DNA of 52,804 bases from Croceitalea sp. (lineage in GTDB: Bacteria > Bacteroidota > Bacteroidia > Flavobacteriales > Flavobacteriaceae), in contig JABDND010000078.1 of NCBI GenBank assembly GCA_013001145.1, positions 1 to 52,804 of the forward strand. The letters run 5' to 3'. The translations under genes and the position numbers were made by a program. Positions 7,000 through 12,620 of this stretch are shown piece after piece; within the stretch, counting starts at the first letter, position 1; the number at the start of each line of letters is the position of its first letter. The notes below the pieces were generated by a model, which was not told the origin of the DNA, made no database searches, and saw only the letters and a program-made list of their open reading frames with translations.

Positions 7000-8847
7000 T
7001 TACTCCACTGTAACCGATTTTGCCAAGTTTCTTGGCTGATCAACATTACAGCCCCTCATTAATGCTATATGATATGATAATAATTGCAAAGGAATTGTTG
7101 TCAATAAAGGAGACAATGGTTCAGAAGTTTCCGGAACCTCCACTACGTGGTCGGCCAATTCTTTGACCGCAGTATCACCTTCGGTAACCACAGCTATAAT
7201 TTTACCCTGTCTTGATTTTATTTCTTGAATATTACTTACCACTTTTTCATAGTGCCCCTTTCTTGTAGCTATCACCACAACGGGCATTTCTTCGTCGATT
7301 AATGCAATGGGGCCATGCTTCATTTCTGCAGCGGGGTAACCTTCGGCATGAATGTAACTAATTTCTTTTAGCTTAAGGGCGCCCTCCAAGGCCACAGGAA
7401 AATTATATCCTCTACCCAAATAAAGACAATTGGTAGAATCTTTATAACATGCTGCAATGGTTTCAATAAGTGCATTTGATTGCAAGGCCTTTTCCACTTT
7501 AGCTGGAATTCCTTCCAATTCAGTCAAATATTCATGAAATTTTGATTCAGTAAAGACACCTTTCTCTTTCGCCAATTTTAAAGCAATCAACGTCAATACG
7601 GTTATTTGTGTGGTGAATGCCTTTGTTGAAGCCACACCAATTTCCGGGCCTGCATGCGTATATGCCCCAGCATGTGTTTCACGTGCGATGGATGAACCTA
7701 CGACATTACATACTCCAAATACAAAAGCACCTTTTTCTTTTGCCATCTTAATTGCCGCCAGCGTATCTGCTGTCTCTCCGGATTGTGAGATTGCAATAAG
7801 CACATCTTTATCTGTTATGACCGGATTACGGTATCTGAATTCAGATGCATATTCTACTTCAACAGGAATACGGGCCAAATCTTCAAAAATGTATTCAGCT
7901 ACCAACCCGGCATGCCATGAAGTGCCACAGGCAACGATAATAATGCGATTGGCATTCATGAATTTTTCAAGGTTCTGATCAATTCCAGCCATTCTGATAA
8001 TGCCTTGATCTGCCAAAAGACGACCTCTATAGGTATCTAAAATAGCTCTGGGTTGCTCATATATTTCTTTGAGCATAAAATGGTCATAGCCGTTTTTCTC
8101 AATTTCTTCAAGATTCAATTGAAGTTCCATTATGTCTGGGTAGGCTATGGCATCGTCCTTTATTTTACGCAATTTGATTTCTTTGCCAATGCGGATGATT
8201 GCCATTTCTTCATCTTCCAAGTAGACTGCATTATTAGTGAATTCAATAAAGGGCGAGGCATCAGATGCCACGAAATATTCGTTTTCACCAATTCCTATTG
8301 CCAATGGGCTGCCTAATTTGGCAACCACTATTTCATCGGGTTTATTTTTGTCAAACACAGCAATGGCGTAAGCTCCGACAACTTGGTTCAATGCAATTTG
8401 TACGGCTTTCCCCAGTTTAACGCCTTCTTTTTTCTTTACTTCTTCAATTAGATTGACCAGCACTTCCGTGTCAGTCTCAGATTGGAAGGAATATCCTCGT
8501 TTTACCAATGCTTTTTTTATGGCATCGTAATTTTCAATGATTCCGTTGTGAATGATGACCAAATCGCCTGAGTTGGAATAGTGCGGATGTGAATTGACAT
8601 CATTGGGAATTCCGTGGGTAGCCCATCTGGTATGGCCCAAGCCCAATTTACCTTTGGTAGATATTGATAATTCGGCTTTATGCTTCAAATCTTCTACTTT
8701 GCCTTTTGTCTTTGAAAGTTGGGTATTCTCTCCATCGAAGAGCACCAATCCCGCACTGTCATACCCACGATATTCTAGGCGTTGAAGACCTTTTATTATT
8801 ATTGGATAGGCATCACGATGCCCTATATATCCAACTATTCCACACAT
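7000..8847 (-). CDS. glmS: Glutamine--fructose-6-phosphate aminotransferase (isomerizing)
   Basis: This enzyme makes glucosamine-6-phosphate from fructose-6-phosphate and glutamine, the entry to peptidoglycan and lipopolysaccharide amino sugars. The protein has 615 residues, close to the usual 609. It starts MCGIVGYIG, with the catalytic Cys at position 2 of the glutaminase domain, which also shows GHTRWATHG and HNGIIENYD. Two SIS sugar-isomerase domains follow (IIIVACGTSWHAG, ISQSGETADTLAA, and a second with YLGRGYNFPVALEGALKLKEISYIHAEGY). It ends NLAKSVTVE, the conserved C-terminal tail. A -7 box lies at 8891-8898. No glmS ribozyme is evident or expected in this group. Confidence 0.98.
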   Translation of the reverse strand: MCGIVGYIGHRDAYPIIIKGLQRLEYRGYDSAGLVLFDGENTQLSKTKGKVEDLKHKAELSISTKGKLGLGHTRWATHGIPNDVNSHPHYSNSGDLVIIHNGIIENYDAIKKALVKRGYSFQSETDTEVLVNLIEEVKKKEGVKLGKAVQIALNQVVGAYAIAVFDKNKPDEIVVAKLGSPLAIGIGENEYFVASDASPFIEFTNNAVYLEDEEMAIIRIGKEIKLRKIKDDAIAYPDIMELQLNLEEIEKNGYDHFMLKEIYEQPRAILDTYRGRLLADQGIIRMAGIDQNLEKFMNANRIIIVACGTSWHAGLVAEYIFEDLARIPVEVEYASEFRYRNPVITDKDVLIAISQSGETADTLAAIKMAKEKGAFVFGVCNVVGSSIARETHAGAYTHAGPEIGVASTKAFTTQITVLTLIALKLAKEKGVFTESKFHEYLTELEGIPAKVEKALQSNALIETIAACYKDSTNCLYLGRGYNFPVALEGALKLKEISYIHAEGYPAAEMKHGPIALIDEEMPVVVIATRKGHYEKVVSNIQEIKSRQGKIIAVVTEGDTAVKELADHVVEVPETSEPLSPLLTTIPLQLLSYHIALMRGCNVDQPRNLAKSVTVE

Positions 8848-8980: not shown

Positions 8981-10855
8981 CTAATTTGCCTCAGTGTAAA
9001 AAAGCTCAAGCTTGAGCTTTTTGTCTTCATTCTCTTGTTCGACATTGCTACCATACAGGACCGTGCCCAAAGGATTTATGGTATTCATTACCGGTAAGTT
9101 AACCTCATCAACGCCAACTTGGGCACTTAGAACACCTTCAATGCCAATGTTTGATGTCAATACCAATGCCAATTTCGCGTTCGTTGAATCCCTGACAATG
9201 ATGTCATTGATGTATTCTGTAATTCTCACCGAATAATTGACTCCTTGATTATTTGAGTTTTTTTCAATGATGCCCCCATAATTCAAATACTGCCCTAAGG
9301 GAGTTTGTGAAAGAGTTCTTTCTGTGGCAACATTATAAAGAGGGGCGCCGGTTTCTGCATTAAAGAGATAGAGTCTAGGTGGTTCTATGGTACCTCCTAA
9401 GGCATCTAAGGCATCTCGGTCTATGTTGAATACCAATTTGGCTTCATTGATTATCCAATTATTGCTCTTGATTTGATTGATTACCTGTTCTCCCCCATTT
9501 TCTTCAAACAATTGAATTTCAGAATAAACACCTGAACCGCCCTTTAAGTAAATACGGGATGCATTTAATCCATTGTCAACATTATCATTCACCTGACTGG
9601 GCAAAGGCTCGTCAATAAATGTATTGACCGCATTTCCGTTAGTTACATTGTTGGCGTTTTGCAATAAGTTGAACGTATATTCCCTTTCCACTTTTTCAAT
9701 GGCACCAACTGTTTCACCTTCAACATCATTGGTTATATAATCGTCAAATTCATAAGTAAGGGTGACATTCGCCTGTGATATATCAAATAGAATCAAAATA
9801 TCTCCATTCAATGGTGTAATGGAGAAATGCAATCCTCTTATAAAATCATTGAAATTGCTCTGGCTCAATAATTCGGATTGTCCTTCTTTATCTAAAATAT
9901 TTTCTTGAAAAAATTGAGGGTCCAGTGCAACCCTAATACCTGGGTTTAAACGGGTTTTCACCAGTAAAGATTCGTCGGTCTCTTCGGTATCTGGATCATC
10001 TTCTTCAAAAAATAAATATTCTTCGTTACTTATGGTAACTTCACCATCAAAGAGTACGTCAGAAACAAAATTGGGAGAAAATTGTTGGGTGGAATAATAT
10101 TCTTGGGCTTCTTGAAAATTAGAACTAGGGTCCAAATCCCTTAAGAAAAAAGTAGAGCGTTCAACCTTAAAATTAAAAGGTAGGTTCAATGCGTCATCGC
10201 TACCATATATACTATCCAACGCAAATTTTTTGGCAAATGAATTAATTATAGTTACGTCGTCTTCTGCATCTCCTATGCCGTCACCATCGGTATCAGGATT
10301 AAAAGGGTCTGTCCCTTTGATGCGCTCTTCATTATCTGTTAGACCATCACCATCTTGATCACTATTTGGGTCTTCGGCATCTTCGGCAGACTCCAGTTCA
10401 TCCGGCACTCCGTCGGCATCTCTATCACTGTTGGCCGTGGGCACCAATTGATAAGGCAAATACAGAATGACTTCTTTTATGGTTTCATTTTCGTTTATGG
10501 TATTCTCGTCGTCGTCGTCGTCCGCGCTATTTTCACTATTCTGTGAAAAATTACCAAAACCCGGATTGCCTCTGAGGCCAGGGAAAGTCAATTGACTTGT
10601 AATCTGTGCTTGTCTGCGGCCAAATAAGGGGTCGTTATATGTGCCTAATTGATAAAGGGGCAATTTGTTTGTTTGTACCGCGGTCACTTTTTTGTTGAAT
10701 GCAAAAACATCAAATTCTACCCTTTCAGTATCAAAAGGCTCTCCAGCAATAACACCTTCACCTATGGTATCAAGGGCTTCTTCGCATGATAATTGAAAAA
10801 GAACCATGCTTAAAATTCCAGCAAGAGCTGAAAAAGAATTCGTTTTAAACCTCAT
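8981..10855 (-). CDS. DUF4270 lipoprotein with thrombospondin-type-3-like acidic repeats
   Basis: A 624-residue protein of the DUF4270 family, whose function is unknown. The N-terminal signal sequence ends in FQLSCEE, consistent with lipidation at Cys24. The family start ([13 protein letters not shown] and [21 protein letters not shown]-like segment, here with AVQTNK) is clear. Around residues 140-200 there is an insertion of Asp-rich calcium-type repeats ([45 protein letters not shown]), as in thrombospondin type 3 modules. A run of five Asp codons near residue 113 is built from a perfect triplet repeat (10508-10522). It follows the GT5-like gene by 5 bases on the same strand, so both are one operon. 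Confidence 0.88.
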
Positions 10856-10860
10856 TTGGT

Positions 10861-11670
10861 CTATTTTAAAACTTCTGTTTTGTAGAAATTTGAGTAAGCC
10901 TCCTCTGTTTCTTGAAATGAAACATAAGGCAACACCGGCTTATCACTTTTGGAAATATATTCTGTCAATTCTTCAGATATTTCTTCCGAGGCTAAAATAA
11001 CCGCATCAGAAAAATCTATTGCTACCTTTAACAAATTATTATAGTCAGGGCTTTCCAAGACTTTGATTTTGCTTTCGTCAATACCATCAAAGGCAATTTT
11101 TTTCTGCATATTGCCATCTAGGGTTCCATCAAAATTTTGAGCATAAACCGAAGTCACGATTTTGCTGTCTGCAAAGATTGGCTCATCTGCATAAAACTCT
11201 TTTAAATAGAGGGGCAATAATGACGCCAACCAACCATTTACATGTATAATATCAGGTGACCAATTTAATTTTTTGACTGTCTCTACGACACCTTTGGCAA
11301 AAAAAATGGCTCGCTCATCATTATCGGAAAACAATTTGCCCTCCTTGTCTTTAAAAGTGCCCTTTCTTTTAAAATATTCTTCATTGTCTATGAAATAGAC
11401 CTGTATACGCTCTCTAGGTATAGAGGCTACCTTTATGATCAAAGGCATGTCCATATCATTGATGACCAAGTTCATTCCTGATAATCGTATCACTTCATGA
11501 AGTTGATGTCTTCTTTCATTGATATTACCATAACGCGGCATAAAAATCCGTATTTGGCCACCATTACTGTTAACCATTCTTGGAGCTTCATACGACATTA
11601 AGGAAACTTGATTCTCTGGGAGGTAAGGCACTAATTCAGAAGATACAAACAATATCTTTTTACCATTCAT
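10861..11670 (-). CDS. Short GT5-like (glycogen/starch synthase N-terminal domain) protein
   Basis: A 269-residue protein resembling only the N-terminal Rossmann half of GT5 glycogen synthases, which are normally about 480 residues. It opens with [14 protein letters not shown] and has [12 protein letters not shown], both GT5 hallmarks, plus [21 protein letters not shown], matching the GT5 HDW-type region. However, the ADP-glucose-binding KTGG motif that should follow SELVPYL is replaced by PENQ (about residues 18-21), and the C-terminal GT-B domain with the catalytic E-x7-E site is absent. It is therefore unlikely to be an active glycogen synthase. It is cotranscribed with the DUF4270 lipoprotein and divergent from panC. 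A -7 box (TACTTTTG) is at 11707-11714. Confidence 0.8.
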
Positions 11671-11706
11671 AAATGCATTTTTTGATTATCTGCAAAAACG
11701 TAGGTG

Positions 11707-11714
11707 CAAAAGTA
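11707..11714 (-). promoter_or_regulatory. Candidate -7 box for GT5-like/DUF4270 operon
   Basis: The minus strand reads TACTTTTG, an exact TAnnTTTG match 36 bases upstream of the GT5-like start codon, in the 101-base divergent region shared with panC. Confidence 0.45.
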
Positions 11715-11745
11715 CAAAAATTATGTAGATTACCAGTATTTATGG

Positions 11746-11753
11746 TATTTTTG
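11746..11753 (+). promoter_or_regulatory. Candidate -7 box for panC-panD
   Basis: TATTTTTG is an exact TAnnTTTG match ending 18 bases before the panC ATG. It lies in the same divergent region as the opposite-strand box at 11707-11714. Confidence 0.45.
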
Positions 11754-11771
11754 CTCGCTTTTGAATAATTT

Positions 11772-12620
11772 ATGCGTGTATTCAATTTTAAAACTGAGCT
11801 TTTCACATTTATTAAAAATGAAAAGGCGAAAAACAAGACCATAGGTCTTGTGCCCACCATGGGCGCCTTGCACGAGGGTCATTTATCATTGGTTAAAAAG
11901 GCCATGGAAGAAAATGATGTTGTGGTGGTGAGTATTTTTGTCAATCCTACTCAGTTTGATAATAAGGACGACCTTGATAAATATCCTCAAAACTTTTCTG
12001 AAGACTTAAAGACTCTGAATACTGTTTCTGAAGCAATTATAGTTTTTGCCCCAACCAAAGATGATATTTATGAAGGTAGCATTGCTTCAAGATCCTATAA
12101 TTTTGAAGGATTGGAAAAAGTAATGGAAGGTGAGTTCAGAACAGGGCATTTTAACGGTGTAGCTACCATTGTTGAGCTATTATTGCGTACCGTCGATCCT
12201 AACAGGGCCTATTTTGGTGAGAAAGATTTTCAACAATTACAGATCATCAAAAAGCTTGTAAAAAACAAAAAACTACCCTACCAAATTATAGCTTGCCCAA
12301 TAGAAAGAGAGCCCAATGGGTTGGCCCGAAGCTCACGAAATGAAAGGCTTTCTAAAAAAACGCGACAAAAGGCCGCATTGATCTTTAAAACCCTGAGCTC
12401 TGCCAAAGAAAAATTTGGCACGAAAAGTGCTGAATATATAAAGGAATGGGTCACCAAGGTGTTTGATGAAAATGAGTTGTTCAAACTGGAATATTTTGAA
12501 ATAACAGATGTGGACACACTGACACCGATGATCAAAAAACAAAAAAATAGAAAATATCGTGCGTTTATTGCCGTTTATGCCGATGGTATTCGATTGATAG
12601 ACAATATCGCACTCAATTAG
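11772..12620 (+). CDS. panC: Pantoate--beta-alanine ligase (pantothenate synthetase)
   Basis: This enzyme catalyses the ATP-dependent joining of pantoate and beta-alanine to pantothenate, the last step to vitamin B5. The 282 residues match the family length. The ATP-binding HxGH signature appears in [10 protein letters not shown] (residues 28-37), followed by [21 protein letters not shown] and the KMSKS-like SSRNERLS. It precedes panD by 13 bases, so the two adjacent steps of pantothenate synthesis (beta-alanine supply and ligation) are made together. A -7 box lies at 11746-11753. The genes panB and panE are not in this window. Confidence 0.97.

Follow-up and report, generated by a model that had tools for sequence, protein, structure and literature searches.

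Genomic context of the GT5-like gene

The window, that is, the whole 52,804-nucleotide stretch of Croceitalea sp. DNA analyzed here, carries at positions 10,861 to 11,670 (minus strand) an ORF with an ATG start that encodes a 269-amino-acid GT5-like protein, a pseudo-glycogen synthase with a single N-terminal GT-B domain. Residues 5 to 237 match the Pfam family Glyco_transf_5 (PF08323; E = 3e-52, 178.1 bits against a cut-off of 22.7), which is the sole family above its cut-off in this protein, and no Pfam match to a GT1 domain was found in it. The protein does not reach the cut-off of the glgA model TIGR02095 (105.6 versus 328.45 bits), and its best NCBIfam match, PRK14098 "starch synthase" (NF010698), scores 171.3 bits against a cut-off of 754. 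The first-pass annotation, which had described a relative of glycogen synthase with 269 residues, PENQ in place of the KTGG motif, and no C-terminal half of the GT-B fold, is borne out in these features. No signal peptide or lipobox was seen by inspection, and the first strand of the fold begins at residue 5. The true full-length glgA that the first-pass annotation had proposed to look for is present on another contig of the same genome, where it encodes a separate GlgA of 511 amino acids with the motif KSGGMGD.

The gene that follows on the same strand (8,981 to 10,855) lies, as had been noted before, 5 bases beyond the end of the GT5-like gene at 10,861. It encodes a DUF4270 lipoprotein of 624 amino acids (PF14092; E = 1.8e-78, 265.1 bits, cut-off of 27), an orthologue of BamH, with the lipobox FQLSC, the cysteine of which (Cys24) is invariant among 14 members of the class. 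The NCBIfam model BamH_fj (NF053686) scores 409.2 bits, just below its cut-off of 420, which may be explained by three TSP3-type, calcium-binding-like repeats at residues 144 to 196 (10,268 to 10,426, minus strand). Of 78 flavobacterial BamH proteins, 19 have at least one TSP3-like motif, among them every one from the window's nearest relatives (L073 to L087). The next gene downstream of bamH is glmS (7,000 to 8,847, minus strand). On the other side lies panC (11,772 to 12,620, plus strand), and a divergent promoter region, also proposed in the first-pass annotation, is confirmed in the 101 bases between panC and the GT5-like gene (11,671 to 11,771). The motif TAnnTTTG, which we take to be the -7 promoter consensus, occurs there once on each strand, 0.14 occurrences in all being expected from the window's own frequency. 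TACTTTTG (11,707 to 11,714, minus strand) is the promoter-like motif of the GT5-bamH unit, and TATTTTTG (11,746 to 11,753, plus strand) is that of panC.

DUF4270 has been described as BamH, a surface lipoprotein of the BAM complex of Bacteroidota (PMC12611786). BamH of Flavobacterium johnsoniae (Fjoh_0823) is reported to be essential unless BamA is mutated (PMC12611786), and that of Bacteroides thetaiotaomicron (Bt4306) is reported to be important and not essential (PMC12578637). The promoter of fjoh_0824 served for depletion constructs in F. johnsoniae (PMC12611786), which fits an operon common to fjoh_0824 and bamH. The GT5-like protein does not appear among the BAM subunits named in the available text of these two studies, and the word "glycogen" is absent from the main texts of both (PMC12611786 and PMC12578637). 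BamH is a surface lipoprotein, whereas the GT5-like protein is, by inspection, devoid of an export signal.

Predicted structure and loss of catalytic residues

An AlphaFold2 model of the GT5-like protein, computed from the window protein and those of 62 of 80 loci, has a mean pLDDT of 88.0 and a pTM of 0.89. Glycogen and starch synthases rank first among its structural matches, with a Z score of 26.2 and an rmsd of 2.6 over 251 residues for 6GNE. Beyond these, Foldseek returned other GT-B enzymes and weak matches, and the next group in VIA-align is the glycogen phosphorylases, which have a common fold. The N-terminal fold is thus that of GlgA (1RZU, 2QZS, and 6GNE), but GlgA possesses a GT1 domain, the KTGG loop, the aspartate of the HxxDW site, and the active-site histidine, all four of which are missing from the GT5-like protein. 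PENQ (residues 18 to 21; 11,608 to 11,619, minus strand) replaces the KTGG donor loop, with which it aligns in full-length relatives. HVNGW (residues 143 to 147; 11,230 to 11,244, minus strand) corresponds to HxxDW with Asp replaced by Gly, and Y176 (11,143 to 11,145, minus strand) stands at the column of the active-site histidine. The two replaced residues are presumably D137 and H161 in Escherichia coli numbering.

These losses extend to other short forms, as the single-domain proteins are called here. K-x-G-G is kept in none of 32, and lysine is found at that column in two of them (L049 and L050), versus 21 of 21 intact full-length relatives. Some distant short forms retain one or both of the N-side active-site Asp and His, most completely L049. 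The acceptor-side residues H143, W147, D116, N117, and R120 are largely retained, and 26 positions reach 90% conservation or more with the same residue in the short and the intact full-length sets. Four conserved positions (S64, A82, S83, and K103) are new in the short form. Among the best-conserved parts is the family signature at residues 51 to 65 (11,476 to 11,520, minus strand), which runs into a beta hairpin formed by residues 58 to 70 and 73 to 84 and is present even in the reduced genome described below.

The manner in which the GT1 domain was lost is indicated by the C terminus. In VIA-align, the final residues of the model align to the ends of full-length chains (6GNE, 23 to 514; 2QZS, 1 to 477), and for five short forms among the alignments listed, a gap of 174 to 183 residues relative to a full-length relative is followed by a 21-residue tail. 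A position-weight test of the tail gave P values of 0.05 or less in 14 of 32 short forms and placed the best-scoring segment in the tail for 22 of 32, with a P value of 0.099 for the window protein itself. The C-terminal helix (residues 252 to 267; 10,870 to 10,917, minus strand) is probably the retained crossing helix, and the GT1 domain was probably lost internally rather than by removal of the whole C-terminal half. Internal loss, suggested by the model and less strongly by the sequence, is likely and not proven. The missing C-terminal half of the first-pass annotation is therefore correct as far as the GT1 domain is concerned and probably not for the last helix.

Distribution, bamH adjacency, and selection

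Of the 149 class genomes sampled, 143 matched a profile built from the 32 short forms (E of 1e-60 or less, all in open frames of 256 to 336 amino acids), as did 134 of the 136 of good quality. Across the phylum, 197 of 198 genomes gave profile matches. Among the matches listed, the short form is the best match in at least 97 genomes, among which are the 49 from the class without exception, whereas at least 53 have a full-length frame of 467 to 565 amino acids as their best match. In a sample of 41 genomes, 19 have the short form, and 17 of these also have a full-length GT5 protein. The short form is the only GT5 protein in the other two (G017 and G029), the count covering GT5 and not GT3-type glycogen synthases.

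Adjacency of the gene to bamH was counted in three samples. The first comprised 70 loci, the window among them, or 68 once the duplicates L071 and L072 (of L022 and L032) are discounted. In 66 of these 68, the gene immediately downstream on the same strand matches the BamH profile, L035 and L057 being the exceptions; 30 of the 70 were returned by search, and 40 were picked for short frames and spread before their neighbors were seen. bamH is adjacent in 15 of 20 further class loci picked for family spread, a set that includes G002 and the small genome G219, and in 74 of 80 named flavobacterial loci by a single-sequence search, the profile locating BamH within 78 of these 80 loci. BamH is encoded elsewhere in the genome in G002, G007, G240, and G262, and it was not found in profile searches of the G219 and G213 genomes. 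The short form is not an oddity of the Croceitalea genome, and its spread through the class (143 of 149 genomes) is far from chance.

In eight of 10 pairs, dN/dS lies between 0.02 and 0.06, figures that are rough because synonymous sites are near saturation throughout, and synonymous sites are saturated in the other two pairs. The mean identity to relatives is 0.71 for the GT5-like protein (80 loci), compared with 0.55 for PanC (80 loci), 0.80 for GlmS (75 loci), and 0.37 for BamH (38 loci). The substitution pattern indicates that the GT5-like gene is under purifying selection.

Origin among full-length GT5 proteins

In the nearest full-length relatives, a signature of the same kind is found after a P-[RK]-Y-G motif, and in 10 of 20 full-length loci a BamH-profile ORF lies downstream on the same strand. 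BamH was not found in the examined stretch of the other 10, which include all five of the loci in this set that lack KTGG (L159, L162, L163, L165, and L168). Outside the class, BamH was detected with an iterated profile and checked by hhalign. The class BamH aligns with the downstream ORFs of other short-form families (E = 1.6e-26) and with those of the full-length loci (E = 2.1e-24), and the latter two groups align with each other (E = 1.2e-33), which supports homology of the putative BamH proteins of the full-length loci to BamH. Two other markers were set aside. PF14092 was too narrow outside the class, being found in 11 of 41 genomes, and of seven downstream ORFs, four gave weak matches below the cut-off and three gave none; BamH_fj gave no match in the three downstream ORFs of other lineages tried.

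An HAD phosphatase gene follows glgA directly, as judged by eye, in seven of the 10 BamH-bearing full-length loci (L153, L154, L155, L156, L167, L169, and L172), with further genes between it and bamH at L154 and L156, and one also follows full-length glgA at L159 and L162. The three HAD proteins tried (L154, L169, and L162) match GmhB-type models below the cut-offs. The gene after bamH at L161 and L167 matches BamG with 235.1 and 257.5 bits, respectively, the cut-off being 250. An older unit of the order glgA-HAD-bamH-bamG is suggested.

In a tree of 76 N-domains (226 columns), displayed with the GlgA of the window's own genome as the root, the 32 short forms group together with an ultrafast bootstrap support of 79. 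This support being just 79, more than one loss of the GT1 domain is possible. Together with 11 full-length proteins without KTGG, the short forms make up a group with a support of 100, which is joined with intact full-length proteins at 98 to 99. Housekeeping GlgA proteins fall outside the group of short forms and full-length relatives, a nesting that depends on the own-genome GlgA root. The 11 proteins, which are "starch synthases" by name (L159, L162, L163, L165, L168, L192, L193, L197, L200, L201, and L202), have Arg at the lysine column and are without GG, and both of the two run against PRK14098 score above its cut-off. This PRK14098 sister group resembles the GT5-like protein in being without KTGG but is of full length (488 to 489 amino acids). 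Judged from these residues, the catalytic activity of the KTGG-less full-length proteins is doubtful.

A short form in a reduced genome

The G219 genome consists of one contig (489,825 bases; 93% complete), with a GC content of 22% and masked stretches. Its only GT5 protein is a short form, encoded, as judged by eye, between enolase-like and GyrB-like genes. No BamH (profile, E of 1 or less), no Omp85/BamA, and no LpxC were found in this genome, nor were GlmS, PanC, and PanD in searches with the window's proteins; genes for a MurA-type protein (PF00275), MurG, MreB, and FtsZ are present. GlmS, BamH, BamA, and LpxC are thus not necessary partners in G219, as none is detectable there. This one genome, in which neither BamA, BamH, nor LpxC was detected, argues against a need for BAM in the function of the protein and against a role confined to BAM, and it weakens a BAM-only role, which we set aside. 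The same result qualifies the envelope process proposed in the first-pass annotation: the link to an envelope gene, bamH, stands, and confinement to envelope assembly is weakened.

The G219 short form retains 34 of the 43 positions that are at least 90% conserved. The hairpin residues R53, L57 to S64, and K80 to S83 are unchanged except for the replacement of E59 by D, and D116, H143, R102, and R120 are changed. In this one genome, the retained and changed residues argue for a greater importance of the hairpin than of the former cleft, and they suggest that the cleft of the G219 protein is possibly not a working part.

Proposed function and alternative explanations

The GT5-like protein may be a noncatalytic cytoplasmic remnant of GlgA that binds a partner or ligand and adjusts the supply of envelope precursors, a reading to which we give about an even chance. 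Its parts differ in strength. That the protein is a pseudoenzyme derived from a full-length glycogen synthase is highly probable; the fold matches, the lost catalytic residues, and the tree nesting support the repurposed glycogen synthase relative that the first-pass annotation had proposed. A role in envelope-precursor supply is tentative; it is favored because such precursors are what the bamH, glmS, and GmhB-like neighbors and the pathways kept by G219 have in common. Its descent from a full-length GT5 lineage of ADP-glucose glycogen synthases, some members of which are encoded near and upstream of bamH, is well supported. The KTGG loop was lost at a first step, with Arg at the lysine column in the full-length sister group, and the GT1 domain at a second, probably by internal excision with retention of the terminal helix, in the line from which the class and some other families of the phylum derive. 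The present protein would make no glucan and would bind a partner or a small ligand through the invariant hairpin (R53, L57 to S64, and K80 to S83) and the remains of the acceptor cleft. It would adjust the cytoplasmic supply of envelope precursors rather than BAM itself, and the link to bamH would reflect coexpression with envelope growth.

A review states in one sentence that Bacteroidetes keep a GlgA-GT5 fragment (PMC11046441), which is very probably the same protein, and the sentence makes no link to bamH, origin, or function. Our search of the open-access literature returned no paper on the function of the protein or its link to bamH. Judged by locus number alone, BT_4307 is the counterpart of the GT5-like protein in B. 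thetaiotaomicron, where it adjoins bamH (BT_4306). It has been called a "putative glycogen synthase" and cited as a sign of potential glycogen storage (PMC10797578), so the earlier remark that such proteins are easily misannotated holds.

Among the alternatives, the one that survives best is a core role in the cytoplasm that has nothing to do with the envelope, for instance, as a sensor of a metabolite or cofactor, with bamH adjacency being an inherited operon without functional meaning; we consider it possible and on balance improbable. G219, where none of BamH, BamA, LpxC, GlmS, PanC, and PanD was detected beside the short form, and the four genomes that encode BamH elsewhere speak for it, as does a B12 photo-probe screen of B. 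thetaiotaomicron in which BT_4307 belongs to a set of 16 proteins that both replicates enriched (PMC8941943). However, the adjacency persists in most loci of many families and in half of the full-length loci, and the B12 screen also includes several enzymes without a stated B12 role (PMC8941943). The enrichment is a lead only.

The protein could instead be a noncatalytic helper of glycogen synthesis that would determine the number of granules by binding to glucan or to the true GlgA, by analogy with plant STARCH SYNTHASE 5 (SS5), a non-enzymatic starch synthase with a role in starch granule initiation (PMC10801857). Both would be non-enzymatic relatives of starch synthase, SS5 being eukaryotic and tied to starch and likened here by description only. 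The presence of a full-length GT5 protein beside the short form in 17 of 19 genomes and the retained acceptor-side residues agree with such a helper, but G017, G029, and G219 have no GT5 protein other than the short form (the search covering GT5 enzymes), and the neighbors that could be identified are not glycogen genes. We regard this explanation as unlikely.

GT-B enzymes hold the donor chiefly through their C-terminal domain. The sugar-nucleotide-binding protein in an undescribed envelope process that the first-pass annotation had favored agrees with the GT5 ancestry and the bamH operon; with the nucleotide-binding half gone and K-x-G-G lost in all 32 short forms, however, sugar-nucleotide binding is unlikely, and this reading as a whole is quite improbable. 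Slightly less probable still is a split glycosyltransferase of the Alg13/Alg14 kind, in which the nucleotide-binding half is supplied in trans by another protein. The good confidence of the N-domain modeled on its own speaks for it, but active-site residues on the N side are gone as well. In the genome to which the window belongs (88% complete), each of the 11 PF00534 matches falls in a frame of 362 to 512 amino acids, and a search with the C-domain of a full-length relative located the only close GT5-type C-half within the full-length GlgA, so that a free C-half was found in this genome by neither route. A decaying fragment without function, as the domain loss and the term "fragment" in the review (PMC11046441) could be taken to mean, is contradicted by the dN/dS values, by occurrence in 143 of the 149 class genomes, and by retention in a 0.49-Mb genome, and its probability is negligible.

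The preferred reading, a noncatalytic remnant of GlgA acting in the cytoplasm, gives a clear case of pseudoenzyme origin, with three grades: an enzyme whose motifs are intact, a full-length protein that has lost its donor loop, and a single domain. Bacteroidota count among the major bacteria of the gut and of numerous marine environments. Their distinct BAM complex was described structurally in 2025, and the GT5-like gene adjoins bamH in most loci examined. The protein occurs in almost all sampled genomes of the class and is kept by a half-megabase genome, yet it is named as an enzyme, from which glycogen storage has been inferred (PMC10797578). More speculatively, and with a probability that we put rather low, this former enzyme in the bamH operon may be a class-wide and possibly essential regulator that couples sugar or precursor status to envelope construction, with the hairpin as its working surface.
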